This document shows positions 3,612 through 14,299 of a DNA stretch of 32,275 nucleotides, in pieces. The DNA is taken from positions 1 through 32,275 of the forward strand of contig CAMTOK010000014.1 in the NCBI GenBank assembly GCA_947074115.1, in the 5' to 3' direction. The notes below the pieces were generated by a model that did no database searches, was not told the origin of the DNA, and saw nothing but the letters and a program-made list of their open reading frames with translations. Every line of letters starts with the position of its first letter. Position 1 is the stretch's first letter. This DNA is from an uncultured Erysipelotrichaceae bacterium. GTDB taxonomy: Bacteria > Bacillota_I > Bacilli_A > Erysipelotrichales > Coprobacillaceae. Position numbers and translations under genes: made by a program.

Positions 3612-5312
3612 TTATTCATCAACCGCAATAACACTGTATTTTTGGTCCTTTTCTATAATAGTGACTGTTGTTGTTAATGTTGTTGAATCTAATTTTTCAT
3701 TAAATTCATTAAACGTTATATTCATAACCACATCGTAGTAAGTGTAGTCTTCTAATCCACTAATTGCTTTTGTTGATACATCATTACTTAGTACACGAAT
3801 ACGTGTAACCTCTTGTGTATTTTTACCTTCTGCAATCACAGATTCAATTTGAGAATAGTAACCCTCCAACGCATAATTAACAAAGTCTTCTCTTTTGTCT
3901 TCTAAAAGATAAGGAACGCCCCCAATTGTCACATCTGTTTTATTACTTAAGGTATAATAGTCTGTTGCAAAGTACATAGCAACTAAAGAACGAAGTGATT
4001 CTTTATTATTTCTTGTATTTGCTACCTTTAGTTGATTATATATATTATTCATATAAGTAGTCGGGTTTGATAATTCTTCATAAACTATAACGATTGATGG
4101 TGTTGGAGGTTTGATTTCTTCTTTTTGTGACATAATCATCATTGTTGATAGTAAGAATATTACTGTGACAAATACCAATACATATTTTAATTTCATTTTA
4201 CTTCTTATCTTTTGATAAGTCTTTGAATCTTTAATATGTGGTAGATAATCGCTTTGTATAAATATATTCGCAATTGTCAGTAAAGGTTTATACTTTCTTC
4301 CAATCATATTTGTCGCTTCAATAAAGATTTCAAAGAAGATCATAAGGACACAAAAAAGCAATGTCGCTAGTAATTTATCATAAACATAAATATAAGAACA
4401 AACTGAAAATAAAATTGTAACAATATATAAAATTAATACACTTTTTCTTTGTCCTAATTCTAATGAGAACATTAATTTGTGATGTAAGTGATTTCTATCA
4501 GCCTCACTCATTTTCTTATGATTAACTTTACGTCTAACTATTGCGATAAACGTATCCATAATTGGGACCATGAGAACAACGATCGGAGCTCCTAATGTAA
4601 AGAAAGATGAGCTCTTATATCCAAAACCTAATAATGAAATAACTGCAATCATATATCCAATAAATAATGCTCCGCAATCACCTAAAAATATTTTTGCTGG
4701 ATGGAAATTGTAGATCAAAAAACCTGCAATTGCTCCTGCTAACATTAATGATAATGATGTAATGTCTGTTCTTCCATATGTAAGTGATGTTATGGAAATA
4801 GTTACCAATACAATGATAGATATTCCACCACATAAACCATCTAATCCATCAATAAGATTAACTGCATTACATATACCTACAATCCATACAATTGTTACAA
4901 TAATCGCAATAACATAGGAAATTGTTTCTGGTAAGAAAGGTAGAGTAAATCCTTTTAATGAGATCCCACCATAAAATATCACAACTAGTGCCGCAACCAA
5001 TTGTCCTGCAAGTTTAAACTTGGGAGATATATCATGTATATCATCATATAACCCTGTCATAAAGACAATAAATCCACCAATGAGGATTGAGTTAATTTGT
5101 GTATCCGTTTTTAAGAAAATCATAGCGCCTATGAGAAAAGCAGCATATATAGCATAACCACCAGTTCTAGCAATAACACCTTTATGTACAGTTCTCTGAT
5201 TGACATGAGCAATAATACCTAATTTCTTAGAAACTTTACTCACAATCGGAACAAATAAAACGCTTATTATAAATGTAATAACAAATGAAGAAAATATTTC
5301 GATACGCATCAT
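3612..5312 (-). CDS. TagO/WecA-type undecaprenyl-phosphate glycosyl-1-phosphate transferase with extra C-terminal domain
   Basis: 566 aa, much longer than the usual 330-380. Residues 1 to about 345 are a multi-pass polyprenyl-phosphate sugar-1-phosphate transferase. Visible motifs are GLYDDIHD (88-94, Mg-binding Asp pair), NAVNLIDGLDGL (149-160), HPAKIFLGDCGALFIGY (204-220) and the HLHH motif (275-278). This family starts wall teichoic acid or other cell-wall glycan synthesis by loading a sugar-1-phosphate onto undecaprenyl phosphate. One further membrane helix (about 375-394) then leads to a roughly 170-residue domain (395-566), presumably extracytoplasmic, that I do not recognise. The frame is continuous, so this looks like a true fusion. 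Two adjacent ATGs are possible starts; the second has the better spacing from AGGAGG. It is divergent from mupG, and the exact sugar substrate is unknown. Confidence 0.85.
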   Translation of the reverse strand: MMRIEIFSSFVITFIISVLFVPIVSKVSKKLGIIAHVNQRTVHKGVIARTGGYAIYAAFLIGAMIFLKTDTQINSILIGGFIVFMTGLYDDIHDISPKFKLAGQLVAALVVIFYGGISLKGFTLPFLPETISYVIAIIVTIVWIVGICNAVNLIDGLDGLCGGISIIVLVTISITSLTYGRTDITSLSLMLAGAIAGFLIYNFHPAKIFLGDCGALFIGYMIAVISLLGFGYKSSSFFTLGAPIVVLMVPIMDTFIAIVRRKVNHKKMSEADRNHLHHKLMFSLELGQRKSVLILYIVTILFSVCSYIYVYDKLLATLLFCVLMIFFEIFIEATNMIGRKYKPLLTIANIFIQSDYLPHIKDSKTYQKIRSKMKLKYVLVFVTVIFLLSTMMIMSQKEEIKPPTPSIVIVYEELSNPTTYMNNIYNQLKVANTRNNKESLRSLVAMYFATDYYTLSNKTDVTIGGVPYLLEDKREDFVNYALEGYYSQIESVIAEGKNTQEVTRIRVLSNDVSTKAISGLEDYTYYDVVMNITFNEFNEKLDSTTLTTTVTIIEKDQKYSVIAVDE

Positions 5313-5385
5313 ATTCCTCCTTTCCTTTGTATTATATTACAAATTTATATAAATTTATAGAAAATATTATATATGTATTAATTAT

Positions 5386-6519: not shown

Positions 6520-6550
6520 CCACTTCATATTATTGAAGTGGTTTTTCTTT
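6520..6550 (+). terminator. mupG terminator overlapping the HAD gene end
   Basis: 8-bp stem CCACTTCA/TGAAGTGG (6520-6541) followed by TTTTTCTTT on the plus strand. The right arm is also the last four codons of the converging HAD gene. The reverse strand has a weaker U tract. Confidence 0.8.
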
Positions 6551-7330
6551 ATCTAAAATATCATTTAATTGTACAGCTACACCATCTTCTAAGACGGATG
6601 GACAAATGATTTCTGCTCTCTCTTTTATAATATTTAATGCATTACCCATTGCTATTGGATGAGCAACAGTTTCAAACATTTCTACATCATTAGGCCCATC
6701 ACCAAAACAATAAGTGTTTTCTAACGGTATACCAAGCATGCTTACTACATTGAGTATACCCGTTGCTTTCGTTGTAATAGAAGAATACACTTCCATACTA
6801 TGGTTATCAGGATGAAGCTCGTGCTTAAAATGATCAAATAAGTTACATACAGTTTTATATTCTTCTTCTGTATTCACCCACATTTCAATTTTGACTATTT
6901 GATCATGTAGATGTTTTACATCTGTTTCATAAGAAAAGTTATTAAAATCAATATTACATAGTTTATAGAAGTTTAACAACTTCTCATATGATTGATCTAT
7001 ATAACAATAATCAGTTGTTTGAATGACATATTCAATACCAAGTTCTTCTAGTGATTGGCACAATTGCGATACATGTTCTTGATTTAAATAATCAGTATAA
7101 TCTTTCTCATCATATTTAATATGCGCTCCGTTAGCGAGTACATATCCATCAAAACCAATTTCACGAATATTTTCTGCAATATATCCGTACGGTCTTCCAC
7201 TAGCAACAAAGCAATAATGGCCAGCGTCTCGTGCTCTTTTTATTGCATCTTTTACTGCTTGTGTTACGTGACCTATTTCCTGGGAAAACAATGTCCCATC
7301 TATATCAAAAAAGAATATTTTTTTATTCAT
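6530..7330 (-). CDS. Cof-type HAD phosphatase (second of tandem pair)
   Basis: 266 aa, normal for the Cof/IIB subgroup of HAD phosphatases, which dephosphorylate small molecules such as sugar phosphates. Motif I is FFDIDGT (residues 7-13), motif II is the Ser in VASGRP (about 42-47), and motif IV is FGDGPNDVEM (about 209-218). The cap domain between motifs II and III is the type IIB module. The start codon lies 1 nt after the stop of the upstream HAD gene, so translation is probably coupled. The two proteins share the MNKK(I/Y)FFFDIDGTL start but differ elsewhere, which points to an old duplication. The substrate cannot be read from sequence. Confidence 0.88.
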   Translation of the reverse strand: MNKKIFFFDIDGTLFSQEIGHVTQAVKDAIKRARDAGHYCFVASGRPYGYIAENIREIGFDGYVLANGAHIKYDEKDYTDYLNQEHVSQLCQSLEELGIEYVIQTTDYCYIDQSYEKLLNFYKLCNIDFNNFSYETDVKHLHDQIVKIEMWVNTEEEYKTVCNLFDHFKHELHPDNHSMEVYSSITTKATGILNVVSMLGIPLENTYCFGDGPNDVEMFETVAHPIAMGNALNIIKERAEIICPSVLEDGVAVQLNDILDKEKPLQ

Positions 7331-7331
7331 A

Positions 7332-8108
7332 TTAGTCTATCCATCCATAATATTTACATGCATATTCAATACCGTCTTGATCTGCATCTTTTGTAACGAA
7401 AGTTGCTTTATCTTTTAGTGGTTGAATAGCATTTCCCATCGCTATCGATGTCCATTCATTAATAAACATACTTAAATCATTTTTTTCATCACCAAAAACA
7501 ACGACATCTTCATATTGTCCTCCTAAATGATCTACTATAGATTTGATCCCTATTGATTTATCACCCGGTTCAACAAATAAGTATTCTTTATGAAAACGAC
7601 ACCATGGCAACTTCTTTAATGTTTCTAATTGCTCTTCTTCTGGTGCAAAGCATGCGATATAAACCTTATATATTTCATTATAATCTCTAGGATTTAATCC
7701 TTCTATGACCTTTGTTTCCATATAAATATCATGCGTAAAATCATAGAATCTTTCGTCAGGTGCTAGTCGTGTTGTACTATTGTCAGGAGACATAGCCCAG
7801 ATATATCCTTTTGCTTGGCATTCTTCAATCAATTGTACACATAAGTCATAATTTAATGGTTTGACTTCTATAAGTTGGTTATTCATAGTAATACCATTTC
7901 CACCATCACTTACCATATTCTCAAAACCTAATTCCTCCATATGATCAACAGCCATTGCATAACTACGTCCTGTTGCAATTGCTAGAAAATGACCCTTTTC
8001 TTTTAATTGTCTTAAAGTCCTTTTTGTTGATTCTGGAATATATTGGTCACCTGGTGTTCCGACAGCAAGTGTTCCATCTATATCAAAAAAGAAATATTTT
8101 TTATTCAT
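7332..8108 (-). CDS. Cof-type HAD phosphatase (first of tandem pair)
   Basis: 258 aa. Motif I is FFDIDGTLA (7-15), motif II is the Thr in IATGRS (about 44-49), motif III includes the Lys of GDKSIGIK (about 184-191) and motif IV is FGDEKNDLSM (about 206-215), as in Cof-like IIB HAD phosphatases. The ATG is preceded by GAGGTG at good spacing. Together with the next gene it forms a two-gene unit between the mbl terminator and the mupG terminator. Roles in sugar-phosphate or cofactor turnover are typical; proximity to mupG allows, but does not prove, a link to amino-sugar phosphate recycling. Confidence 0.88.
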   Translation of the reverse strand: MNKKYFFFDIDGTLAVGTPGDQYIPESTKRTLRQLKEKGHFLAIATGRSYAMAVDHMEELGFENMVSDGGNGITMNNQLIEVKPLNYDLCVQLIEECQAKGYIWAMSPDNSTTRLAPDERFYDFTHDIYMETKVIEGLNPRDYNEIYKVYIACFAPEEEQLETLKKLPWCRFHKEYLFVEPGDKSIGIKSIVDHLGGQYEDVVVFGDEKNDLSMFINEWTSIAMGNAIQPLKDKATFVTKDADQDGIEYACKYYGWID

Positions 8109-9237: not shown

Positions 9238-9266
9238 AAAAAATAATAGCGATTATAAATCGCTAT
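9238..9266 (-). terminator. spoIIQ terminator
   Basis: 9-bp stem ATAGCGATT/AATCGCTAT (9246-9266) with a 3-nt loop followed by ATTATTTTTTT. The spoIIQ stop (9263-9265) lies inside the stem. Confidence 0.87.
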
Positions 9267-9913
9267 CTGATAGAAGTGAGTAGCTCACCAATATATTTTT
9301 CTGGGTTTAATAACTTATCCCCAACTTGTAAAATGAATGATAAATGGTTACCTAAATCAGCTTCATAAACGTTTTCACCGCTCTTACCAATTGTATCACC
9401 TTGTTTTACAGTTTGATTAAGTTCAACATTAACGACAGATAATGATTCATAAGTTGTTGATATATTGTTTGAATTTGTAATTGTAACAACCCAACCTAAT
9501 ACAGGATCATTAGTTTTCTTTGTTACTGTTCCACTAATGGCTGCAACAACATCGAAAATCTCATTTTTGTTTGAGTAATCTACACCTTGATTTGGTCTAT
9601 ACACATTTTCAAATAAGATTAATGATGCAGCTTGTTTTTCAGCTGTGTCATCTTTGTCGTAAAAATATCTTACAATACCAATTCCATCAGCAACTGGAGA
9701 TAATACCTTTGTATCTTCTACAACAGTTGGGGTTTCATCTTCAACCTTTGCTGGATCCTTTGTTTGAACATTCGTAACCGGATTGTCATCAAACTCTGAA
9801 TTTTGGTTATCTAAAATACTTTGAATAATTCCTACCCCTCCTAAGAAGAGCGCTAATGCTAAACAAATGCCCACTATTTTCTTATAATGAATTGTTCTCT
9901 TTTTCATATTCAT
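9263..9913 (-). CDS. spoIIQ: Stage II sporulation protein SpoIIQ-like, degenerate LytM/M23 domain
   Basis: 216 aa. One N-terminal membrane helix (about 12-32), a low-complexity acidic linker, then a LytM/M23 fold (about 80-210). In Bacillus SpoIIQ is made in the forespore and pairs with mother-cell SpoIIIAH across the septum during engulfment. Position directly after spoIID and before mbl supports the name. The zinc site is broken: the first His of HxGxD is Asn (NQGVD, N108) and the HxH pair reads HLS (H190, S192), so a structural role is likelier than peptidase activity. The ATG has GAGGTG at 7 nt. A forespore-type promoter motif lies just upstream, partly in the end of spoIID. A plain M23 lipoprotein-like protein is the alternative, but synteny makes that less likely. 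Confidence 0.87.
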   Translation of the reverse strand: MNMKKRTIHYKKIVGICLALALFLGGVGIIQSILDNQNSEFDDNPVTNVQTKDPAKVEDETPTVVEDTKVLSPVADGIGIVRYFYDKDDTAEKQAASLILFENVYRPNQGVDYSNKNEIFDVVAAISGTVTKKTNDPVLGWVVTITNSNNISTTYESLSVVNVELNQTVKQGDTIGKSGENVYEADLGNHLSFILQVGDKLLNPEKYIGELLTSIR

Positions 9914-9929: not shown

Positions 9930-9958
9930 TAGTATGAACAGTTTTTTCTAATATATAC
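9930..9958 (-). promoter_or_regulatory. candidate forespore (sigma-F/G type) promoter for spoIIQ
   Basis: Minus strand GTATA (9954-9958), 17-nt spacer, CATACTA (9930-9936). It fits the forespore class (GnATR ... CATnHTA) and recurs with identical spacing upstream of hdeD and ldh. The -35 lies in the last codons of spoIID. Bacillus spoIIQ is a classic sigma-F gene. Confidence 0.55.
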
Positions 9959-11520: not shown

Positions 11521-11557
11521 AACACCTCACATATAGTTTTATGTGGAGGTGTTTTTT
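11521..11557 (+). terminator. terminator hairpin that sequesters the next SD
   Basis: AACACCTCACAT (11521-11532) pairs with ATGTGGAGGTGTT (11541-11553, one bulged G) and is followed by TTTTTT. The 3' arm contains the SD GGAGG (11545-11549) of the ferritin-like gene, so the structure can stop transcription and, if read through, also mask translation initiation. Confidence 0.8.
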
Positions 11558-11558
11558 T

Positions 11559-12086
11559 ATGAATCAATATATGTTAGATATACCTTATCCTTCTATTAAA
11601 GGATTAGATTTAAATGTAACTTACGGACAAATGTTGCTCTCCAACTTAGGAGGAACTGTTTCTGAAATGAGCGCGATTAGCTTATATATTTATAATGCTG
11701 TTTTGTTGGAAACACAATGGCCTGAACTCTCAACAGCTTTCTTATCAATTAGTCAAACTGAAATGAAACATTTACAATTATTTTCAAGAATGTGTTCTAT
11801 GCTTGGTGTTGACCCAAGATTATGGGATTGTCAAAATGATTTTCTAGAATATTGGTCACCTGGTTATAATGTTTATCCAAGACAAATTAAAACAATGTTA
11901 GAGAACGCAATTATCTCAGAAAATCATGCAATTCAAAATTATGAATATCAATTAAGATGCATACAAGAACCAATCATACAAAGTGTACTTAATCGTATTA
12001 TACTTGATGAAAAACATCATGTGCATATATTAGAAAATTTCTTAAATGAATATATGTCTACTAAAAATATAAATTCATATGAATAA
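11559..12086 (+). CDS. Ferritin-like diiron (rubrerythrin-type) protein
   Basis: 175 aa from the ATG at 11559, 9 nt after GGAGG; a longer reading from 11541 would start inside the terminator stem and is rejected. The predicted four-helix bundle carries the expected metal ligands: Glu in TVSEMSAISLY (E36), ExxH in QTEMKHLQ (E68, H71), Glu in ISENHAIQNYE (E121), and ExxH in LDEKHHVHI (E151, H154). This is the ferritin-like pattern of rubrerythrin and related spore-coat manganese catalases. No rubredoxin-like Cys4 domain is present. It may act in peroxide or iron handling; the exact activity is not determinable. It converges on the DUF4236 gene through a shared terminator. Confidence 0.8.
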   Translation: MNQYMLDIPYPSIKGLDLNVTYGQMLLSNLGGTVSEMSAISLYIYNAVLLETQWPELSTAFLSISQTEMKHLQLFSRMCSMLGVDPRLWDCQNDFLEYWSPGYNVYPRQIKTMLENAIISENHAIQNYEYQLRCIQEPIIQSVLNRIILDEKHHVHILENFLNEYMSTKNINSYE

Positions 12087-12107
12087 AAGACCGAAAGGTC
12101 TTTTATT
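12082..12107. terminator. bidirectional terminator (ferritin-like / DUF4236)
   Basis: 11-bp perfect stem AATAAAAGACC/GGTCTTTTATT with a GAAA tetraloop. U-rich sequence follows on both strands, and the stop codons of both converging genes lie within it. Confidence 0.88.
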
Positions 12108-12576
12108 GTTCTATATTAGCAATACTTTCTTGTAAATCTATTTTCTGGTTTTCTAATTCTTCTAATTCTAACCTTTTTTCTTCTAGTAATGCTGTGTGTT
12201 CTTCAATAATTTGACTCACCGCGGTCATATCACTTTGTTTAATATCACTTGATCCACTAATAGCATTACCTACTATAATACCAATAATAATTATTATTAT
12301 TTCTTTATAATGTTTTTTAAAGAAACCTGTTTTTTTCTCTTCAGTTTCTTTAATTTTAAGATCTTGATTGAAGTTCTCTTTAGGTTCTGTATGTACAGTA
12401 CTTATTTTTTTTTGAAATCTTACCGGACCAGTTCCACCATATACTCTTGTCCCTTTCTTATTTGTACTTATCCTTGCACCTTTAACGCCAGTGGAAATTC
12501 CAACGCCACCTTTGGATGATAAATTTAATCTTGTATTCTTACCGATTTTAAATGATTTTCTAAATGTTAATCCCAT
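12103..12576 (-). CDS. DUF4236 protein with membrane helix and coiled-coil tail
   Basis: 157 aa. The N-terminus (1-53) is a DUF4236 domain, recognisable from GLTFRKSFKIGKNTRLNLS, GVGISTGVKGARIS and the closing GGTGPV. A charged linker, one very Ile-rich membrane helix (about 91-107) and a C-terminal Glu/Leu-rich coiled coil (about 120-157) follow. The function of DUF4236 is unknown. It lies 12 nt after the secreted Cys-rich gene and is probably co-transcribed. Both proteins carry a similar EExxxELEE-type coiled coil outside or across the membrane and could pair. The SD AAGGGGG precedes the ATG. No enzymatic motif is seen. Confidence 0.75.
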   Translation of the reverse strand: MGLTFRKSFKIGKNTRLNLSSKGGVGISTGVKGARISTNKKGTRVYGGTGPVRFQKKISTVHTEPKENFNQDLKIKETEEKKTGFFKKHYKEIIIIIIGIIVGNAISGSSDIKQSDMTAVSQIIEEHTALLEEKRLELEELENQKIDLQESIANIEQ

Positions 12577-12588
12577 TTTATAACCCCC

Positions 12589-13155
12589 TTAATAACATTT
12601 TTGACAGGCACGCATACCGCTTGTATTTGCTTTTTCAAGGGTAATTTGTGTCGGTGTTTTCATTCGGCTACATGTTGAACTCGAGTGATAAATAGTAGCA
12701 TCAGATCCTTTTATCCATACCATTTGACTCGTTTCATTAACTACAGCTTCACTTTGTTGTGTGGCCTCAGATTGTGTTGTTGAAGACTGACTTGATGACG
12801 ACTGCGTTGAAGTTGATTGATTCGAAGAAGATTGTGTAGTAGAAGACCCTGCAGTTTGGGTTGAAGCTGTTTCTTGTTTTTTTGCTTCTTCTTGAGCTTT
12901 TGCTGCTGCCTCACTTGCTAATTTCTCTTCTTCAACCTTTTTTGCTGCTGCAACGAGCGCTAATTCTTTTTCTTGTTCCAATTCTAAGATTTCTTCATTT
13001 TTTTCTTGAATTAAAGATTCAATTGATGACAATTCATTTTCTAATTCTTTTTGCTCACTTATTAAATTTTCATAGTCTGTGCTAGATATTGCTCCTATAT
13101 TTCCAAATACACCAAAAATAAACACAACTAATATAAATAATACTATTTTTTTCAT
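12589..13155 (-). CDS. Secreted coiled-coil protein with Cys-rich C-terminal module
   Basis: 188 aa from the ATG at 13153-13155, which lies 8 nt after GGAGG; an upstream in-frame ATG overlaps the SD and is rejected. A signal peptide (about 1-23) is followed by a Glu-rich coiled coil (about 25-95), a long Ser/Thr/Gln linker (about 96-142) and a C-terminal module of about 43 residues. That module, with VWIKGSDATIYH, STCSRMK and the final GMRACQKCY, resembles the small (Y/V)xTxxGxKYHxxxCxxL...CxxC modules found at the ends of many Firmicute surface and nuclease-type proteins, which probably bind a metal through three Cys and a His. The specific function is unknown. It is the first gene of a pair with the DUF4236 gene. 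Confidence 0.75.
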   Translation of the reverse strand: MKKIVLFILVVFIFGVFGNIGAISSTDYENLISEQKELENELSSIESLIQEKNEEILELEQEKELALVAAAKKVEEEKLASEAAAKAQEEAKKQETASTQTAGSSTTQSSSNQSTSTQSSSSQSSTTQSEATQQSEAVVNETSQMVWIKGSDATIYHSSSTCSRMKTPTQITLEKANTSGMRACQKCY

Positions 13156-13235
13156 TAACTTTACCTCCATATTTTTCCATATTTATAATATTAACAAAAA
13201 AATAATATAATTTCATTTATTTTTACATATTTAAT

Positions 13236-13272: not shown

Positions 13273-13707
13273 TTATTTTAATTTTTTTCTAAACTCGCGA
13301 ATCTCTTGATCCAGTTTATCTAATGCATTATCTAATACATCTGCGAGATAATCTCCAAATTCAAGCATATCATATAAATCTTTTAATGCTTCTATAACGC
13401 CTTCTTCAATTTCTTCACCTGAAGCAATTTCTACTAAGTCTCCATCACCATCTTTATCATATAAGATTTGATCAGGAATATCGTTGTCATTTGTATCTTT
13501 AAAATAAAGATTAAATTCACCATCTCCTGTTGTATCAATAGCTAATGTATCAATATTACCATTTCCTGTTGTATCAAGTAATGCTAAATCTGGTTCTTTG
13601 TCTCCATCAATATCAATAAGGATTTGGTCTCTTGTACCTCTAATTAATGTTTTTCTTAAATCCTTATCAAATTTCATTTTTCTTTTTAATTTCTTTAATG
13701 TTCCCAT
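13273..13707 (-). CDS. Small protein with five 13-residue Asp-rich (Ca-binding-like) repeats
   Basis: 144 aa with no signal peptide or membrane helix. After a basic N-terminus (about 1-27), five tandem repeats begin with Asp at residues 32, 45, 58, 71 and 84, exactly 13 apart, on the pattern DxxGDGxxDxxxx (for example DTTGNGNIDTLAI, DTTGDGEFNLYFK). This resembles EF-hand loops or type-3 thrombospondin-like calcium sites, but the 13-residue spacing leaves no room for EF-hand helices. An acidic, probably helical C-terminal half (about 95-140) follows and ends in a basic tail. It lies 10 nt after hdeD with its own AAGGAG SD, so the two form an operon with a forespore-type promoter motif. Calcium binding is inferred and the role is unknown. 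Confidence 0.75.
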   Translation of the reverse strand: MGTLKKLKRKMKFDKDLRKTLIRGTRDQILIDIDGDKEPDLALLDTTGNGNIDTLAIDTTGDGEFNLYFKDTNDNDIPDQILYDKDGDGDLVEIASGEEIEEGVIEALKDLYDMLEFGDYLADVLDNALDKLDQEIREFRKKLK

Positions 13708-13717
13708 AATGTCTCCT

Positions 13718-14248
13718 TTAATTATTAAATTTTGATAACGTAAATATTGTTGCTAAGAATCCGATACCTTTCATAATGAAACTTAATCCAACTAAAACTG
13801 TTATTGCTATAATACCTACAATAGGATCAAACATTGAACATAATCCTAATCCAATAGCAATAATTCCTAGTATAAGAATAAGCCACCATGAGCCATACCC
13901 CAGTTTTTTACAATCAAATGCACCAATTATCCTTACGATTCCAGAGAAGATAATCCATACCCCAAATATGTACGGTAACATTGTCGCTACAAAGAAACCA
14001 TTAAATAATAATATAACACCCATTATTATATCAACAATTCCCTCGAATAATAGCCATCCTGAACCTGTATACTGTTTTGCTCCCGAGAAATAATAAACTA
14101 GTGTTAATACCCCAGAAACCAATGCTAGAATAGCGATCATCCATGCAACTGAAACTAATGTAGCTGCTGGATTGAAAAGCGACATAATACCTACTGCAAT
14201 CATAGCGATTGCAGCAATGATTGAAATGACTTTTTGCCATCCATTCAT
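13718..14248 (-). CDS. HdeD-family (DUF308) membrane protein
   Basis: 176 aa from the ATG at 14246-14248, 8 nt after the AAGGAG SD; two upstream in-frame starts lie too close to the SD. About six hydrophobic helices in three hairpin-like pairs, rich in Gly, Ile and aromatic residues, with no charged pore motif. The pattern (NPAATLVSVAWMIAILALVSG, then repeated GWLLFEGIVDIIMGVILL) is that of the DUF308/HdeD family, whose E. coli member is linked to acid resistance; the biochemical role is not established. It is the first gene of an operon with the Asp-repeat protein. Its upstream region carries GTATG-N17-CATAATA, matching the spoIIQ element, so forespore expression is proposed. Confidence 0.82.
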   Translation of the reverse strand: MNGWQKVISIIAAIAMIAVGIMSLFNPAATLVSVAWMIAILALVSGVLTLVYYFSGAKQYTGSGWLLFEGIVDIIMGVILLFNGFFVATMLPYIFGVWIIFSGIVRIIGAFDCKKLGYGSWWLILILGIIAIGLGLCSMFDPIVGIIAITVLVGLSFIMKGIGFLATIFTLSKFNN

Positions 14249-14270
14249 TGTCATCACTCCTTTTCTTTGA

Positions 14271-14299
14271 TATTATGCCCTAACTCGATTTCTTCATAC
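14271..14299 (-). promoter_or_regulatory. candidate forespore (sigma-F/G type) promoter for hdeD operon
   Basis: Minus strand GTATG (14295-14299), 17-nt spacer, CATAATA (14271-14277) preceded by GGG. GGGCATAATA fits the sigma-F -10 pattern GGnnAnAnTR fully. The predicted start near 14265 lies just before the hdeD SD. Confidence 0.5.

Follow-up and report, generated by a model that had tools for sequence, protein, structure and literature searches.

The window, meaning the whole stretch of DNA analysed here, comprises 32,275 nucleotides (positions 1 to 32,275 of contig CAMTOK010000014.1, assembly GCA_947074115.1) from an uncultured Erysipelotrichaceae bacterium. On its minus strand lies a two-gene operon whose second gene (Table 1) starts with ATG behind the ribosome site AAAGGAG and encodes a protein carrying five Asp-rich units of 13 residues each. 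A DUF308/HdeD-like gene precedes it at a distance of 10 bp, an intrinsic terminator follows it, and a promoter of the forespore type lies ahead of the pair, the apparent terminator of the preceding gene being recognisable by eye on the 5' side of this promoter. No family for the 144-aa protein was found in Pfam, NCBIfam or PHROGs. By inspection it has no signal peptide, the N-terminus forming a basic helix, which agrees with a sequence-only reading of the locus that had called the protein cytosolic.

Table 1. Coordinates of the repeat-protein gene, its segments and its operon elements in the window
Feature	Position	Strand	Remarks
Repeat-protein CDS (MGTLKKLKRKM...FRKKLK, 144 aa)	13273..13707	-	Homologues share the MGTL start and the length
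N-terminal basic segment (residues 1-26, net charge +9; modelled helix 3-18)	13630..13707	-	
Array of five 13-residue Asp-rich units (residues 32-96; Asp loops between predicted strands)	13420..13614	-	
C-terminal amphipathic helix (residues 98-143)	13279..13416	-	Model and alignment
First gene of the operon, DUF308/HdeD-like membrane protein (ATG start probably at 14248)	13718..14257	-	
Intrinsic terminator, 5 nt past the repeat-gene stop codon	13241..13267	-	
Promoter GTATG-N17-CATAATA, perfect sigma-G consensus match	14271..14299	-	G before the -10 also fits sigma-F

The units of the array begin at D32, D45, D58, D71 and D84 and read, in order, DIDGDKEPDLALL, DTTGNGNIDTLAI, DTTGDGEFNLYFK, DTNDNDIPDQILY and DKDGDGDLVEIAS. 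They had been described as exact repeats, which holds for the 13-residue spacing but not for the sequences: Gly at unit position 4 is found in units 1, 2, 3 and 5 only, unit 1 carries Lys in place of the Gly at position 6, and position 9 is Asn in unit 3 and Val in unit 5. Asp or Asn usually occupies position 3 in units 1, 4 and 5 alone, while Thr is found there in units 2 and 3. When residues 27-97 are compared with themselves, identity amounts to 24% at a lag of 13, 33% at a lag of 26 and 25% at a lag of 39, against 2-12% at most other lags and 19% at lag 24. The five-unit motif scores 23 of 25 in the protein, the best score among 20,000 shuffles each of the whole protein and of the repeat segment being 18. 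Given the high Asp content, about 1% of shuffles contain five Asp residues in a 13-residue register; the bare register is thus not rare, and the case stands on the full unit pattern and its conservation. Translation, shuffling and conservation all bear out the five consecutive units, and at the level of sequence the alignment with 14 homologues takes away the remaining doubt about the array.

This alignment comprises 15 sequences, the query and 14 full-length homologues that are 51-60% identical to it. Position 1 is Asp in 15 of 15 sequences in all five units, and in units 1-4 an oxygen-bearing residue (Asp, Asn, Glu, Ser or Thr) occupies positions 3, 5 and 9 in every sequence. Unit 5 is looser, with an oxygen-bearing residue in 87% of sequences at position 5 and in 67% at position 9. 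Positions 1, 3, 4, 5 and 9 of unit 1 (DIDGD...D) never vary, and this unit presents a complete ligand set of the DxDxDG type, save for the Lys that stands in for the last Gly. The repeats are also the best conserved part of the protein, the mean fraction of the top residue being 0.91 there, 0.87 at the N-terminus and 0.79 in the C-terminal part. With their ligand residues at positions 1, 3, 5 and 9, the loops belong to the Dx[DN]xDG class, which is a class of motif and not a homologous family, and on this pattern the five-loop protein is likely to bind calcium. The bacterial cytosol has low free Ca2+, so that the loops would need either high affinity or a Ca2+-rich compartment.

AlphaFold2, supplied with the natural alignment (mean pLDDT 82.5, pTM 0.66), predicts strands at residues 28-31, 41-44, 54-57, 67-70, 80-84 and 91-96, one repeat apart, together with a basic helix at the N-terminus and a long one at the C-terminus. 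In this model the Asp loops fall between the strands, giving a strand-loop-strand arrangement. The same elements are predicted, with a lower confidence of 69.8, for the roe-deer homologue (51% identical) when it is put first in the alignment. Foldseek searches with two models against the PDB and with one against BFVD gave no significant match; the best non-significant matches are open sheets (TarM/SdgB, MORN repeats), which provide a hint only.

The loops resemble those of Dx[DN]xDG proteins in having Asp at position 1, Asp, Asn or Thr at position 3, Asp or Asn at position 5, Gly around these and an acidic residue at position 9 (PMC3123361), but here a small protein that lacks a signal peptide has five of them, strictly in tandem every 13 residues. 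According to Rigden et al. 2011, the common intracellular contexts of the motif are the EF-hand and the calcium blade only (PMC3123361), and judged by its model the 144-aa protein is neither. It has in common with the EF-hand an Asp-rich cation loop of similar length, whereas the elements predicted to flank its loops are strands and not helices. Pfam EF-hand models stayed below the cut-off in every member tested, and an EF-hand was rejected on both grounds, in keeping with the earlier suggestion of calcium-type loops that are not EF-hands. RTX nonapeptide repeats are likewise tandem and Asp/Gly-rich, with short strands and calcium-type loops, but their period is 9 rather than 13 residues and their unit GGxGxDxUx rather than DxxGDGxxD; with a period of 13, no GGxGxD unit, no signal for secretion and no sign of a type I export context, this assignment was also set aside. 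The same 13-residue period, with the unit DTxGDGxxDTxxx and no obvious signal peptide, is shared by an eight-unit protein at locus L032 and by the Gordonia plasmid protein P0002, both of which, unlike the 144-aa family, are without the MGTL helix and the C-terminal helix.

The L032 protein (4977-5345), from a Clostridia genome that also hosts the family, consists almost entirely of its eight 13-residue Asp units (DTTGDGKKDTLLV...) and has no Pfam match over the cut-off. On Gordonia plasmid pG135 (L038, 1078-1782), a hypothetical protein with six consecutive 13-residue Asp units comes near the DUF6802 cut-off but remains below it, and Rhodococcus plasmids encode proteins with similar arrays that are annotated as hypothetical; one plasmid stretch among the search hits is from Prescottella (Rhodococcus) equi. 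Nothing direct emerged from literature searches on calcium repeats of 13 residues, on DUF6802 or on calcium-binding proteins of the forespore.

Sigma-G promoters follow the consensus GHATR-N17/18-CATWHTA. The motif in front of the repeat operon matches this pattern without a mismatch and lies 16-22 nt ahead of the operon start, the right distance for a forespore-regulon promoter. Its G before the -10, which combines sigma-F and sigma-G features, has a counterpart reported for C. difficile spoVT (PMC3789822). The raw count of the motif in the host genome is 62, against 61 for the reversed pattern, and is thus not enriched, so that the motif was judged by its position relative to starts only. 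Six of the 62 sites stand 15-20 nt ahead of a start that has a ribosome site; the genome-wide rate predicts about 0.2 at this position, or about 0.7 with a fourfold higher intergenic density (2000 starts being the assumed number). These six precede DUF1540, spoIIQ, the repeat operon, thioredoxin, desulfoferrodoxin and a YetF-type DUF421 gene, the site at desulfoferrodoxin also overlapping an open frame. spoIIQ (9263-9913) provides an internal positive control, having GTATA-N17-CATACTA at 9930-9958 on the minus strand, and both there and at the YetF-type gene the motif stands at the same distance as in the repeat operon. In B. subtilis, yetF and its homologues are sigma-F/G (forespore) genes (PMC10126465), and a sigma-G promoter is listed for CD1789 (DUF421) of C. 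difficile (PMC3789822). The host genome contains SASP genes and one or more sigma-G-like factors, and its strongest SASP gene has a copy of the motif with one mismatch. The forespore promoter proposed from the letters alone thus stands, and expression of the operon in the forespore of this host is likely from the sequence and placing of the motif. The spoIIQ gene itself lies beside spoIID and a gene resembling mreB.

Full-length relatives (51-60% identical) were located at 14 loci by scanning about 85,000 species genomes with short patterns, which may miss more distant relatives, and a profile search added one more (L031, 51%). The hosts are nearly all rabbit-gut Clostridia/Oscillospiraceae MAGs, the others being one roe-deer Ruminococcus MAG and one Spirochaetaceae MAG. 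The gene was found in none of the 36 other genomes of the host's family, nor in any of the 391 other genomes of the phylum sample, and among 398 sampled genomes of a Clostridia phylum only the query genome had it; phage, plasmid and viral-contig searches with the 144-aa protein gave no match. The spirochaete copy is 74-81% identical to the rabbit-gut Clostridia copies, which, together with the patchy distribution, indicates horizontal spread of the family. The spirochaete contig looks genuine: its neighbouring ATP-grasp gene has relatives 40-63% identical in the same family, the comparison being made within that family.

SASP genes are present in 12 of the 16 genomes carrying the family, and a strong sigma-G match in all of the carriers except the spirochaete and the query host, where the match is weaker. 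The spirochaete host has no SASP and no sigma-G, only one sigma-70-type gene matching the sigma-G model, and that weakly. No forespore motif was found within 400 nt upstream of the homologues, which is a weak control because the SASP genes of those genomes match poorly too, the motif being only partly recovered upstream of them; vegetative-looking -35/-10 pairs can be made out by eye upstream of the homologues at L010, L012 and L031. The DUF308 partner is not conserved beside the homologues, and the relatives' DUF308 genes (23-34% identical, probably not orthologues) do not have the same promoter in front of them. Neighbouring genes vary, with DUF1269 proteins at L004 and L012 and Mn-catalase, radical SAM, ABC-type and other genes elsewhere. 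Carried by a spirochaete, lacking common neighbours and absent from the rest of the host's family, the gene does not behave as a conserved sporulation gene. The general forespore or spore-core function that the sequence-only reading had considered is therefore not borne out, the homologues being without conserved neighbours and without such a promoter, and the Spirochaetaceae host of one homologue, having neither SASP nor sigma-G, speaks against a spore-linked family and is of the kind that the same reading had named as evidence against it. Given homologues in which the forespore motif was not found, their varied neighbours and the SASP-free spirochaete host, the family as a whole probably consists of general cytosolic proteins, the member in this host having been recruited behind a forespore promoter.

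The family is real, conserved and uncatalogued, and its small cytosolic members carry DxDxDG-type loops outside an EF-hand setting. The best explanation as a whole for the member described here, which we would give about an even chance of being right, is a Ca2+-loop accessory or stress protein of the forespore behind a sigma-G promoter. The five DxxGDGxxD loops, placed at the turns of a small beta-sheet, would each hold a divalent cation, most probably Ca2+. Cation binding would probably fold and stiffen the sheet, and the basic N-terminal and long C-terminal helices would offer interaction surfaces. A sigma-G (perhaps sigma-F/sigma-G) promoter, from which the gene would be co-transcribed with that of the DUF308/HdeD-like membrane protein, should place synthesis of the repeat protein in the forespore, later the site of Ca2+ and dipicolinate uptake. 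Its probable role there would be that of an accessory or stress protein, stabilised by Ca2+ and close to the inner membrane. A dedicated part in the handling of spore calcium is possible; that the five-site strand-loop sheet folds only as the forespore fills with calcium and, with the DUF308 partner, serves as a sensor or sink in Ca-dipicolinate loading seems improbable.

It is possible, if doubtful, that the protein is instead a general cytosolic cation-binding or stress accessory protein, spread horizontally among gut bacteria, whose forespore promoter here is a local accident. The query genome as sole carrier among 37 genomes of its family and 392 of the phylum sample, the other loci in gut Clostridia/Oscillospiraceae and one spirochaete, the variable neighbours and the vegetative-looking promoters are all consistent with this, but the promoter here is strong in sequence as well as position, and most homologue hosts have sporulation genes. 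Repetitive Asp/Gly tracts easily arise (PMC3123361) and canonical sites have Asp or Asn where units 2 and 3 have Thr, so an array that is only structural, as a solubility element or beta-sheet scaffold whose loops bind no particular metal, deserves mention; against this rather unlikely reading, the oxygen ligands at positions 1, 3, 5 and 9 are kept position-specifically in 15 sequences down to 50% identity. Descent as a fragment or degenerate member of the FG-GAP/integrin-type calcium-blade propellers is very improbable: the best weak PDB sequence matches do hold FG-GAP-like stretches, and Pfam FG-GAP_3 appears in homologues below its cut-off, but units of 13 residues are too short for a blade, and the model, a single run of short strands, has no significant Foldseek match.

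The interest of the protein lies in the rarity of intracellular calcium-binding repeats in bacteria; the literature searched contains no repeat-type calcium-binding protein of the developing spore core. With its 144 residues, up to five like sites and a spore-type promoter, this compact protein allows the idea of a forespore calcium protein to be tested directly, and the array points to an uncatalogued repeat, 13 residues long and made of a strand and an Asp loop, that recurs in other phyla.

Elsewhere in the window, the plus strand encodes at 11541-12086 a ferritin-like protein of the rubrerythrin family with sub-threshold likeness to encapsulin cargo ferritins (EncB family). On the minus strand, the gene of a secreted coiled-coil protein (12589-13170), which has a Ser/Thr/Gln-rich linker, a small Cys-containing domain at the C-terminus and no family match above the cut-off, is followed just downstream by that of a DUF4236 protein (12103-12576) combining a membrane segment with a C-terminal coiled coil. 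Two tandem HAD-type phosphatase genes (Cof-like by eye), 1 bp apart on the minus strand at 6530-8108, are probably a local duplication.
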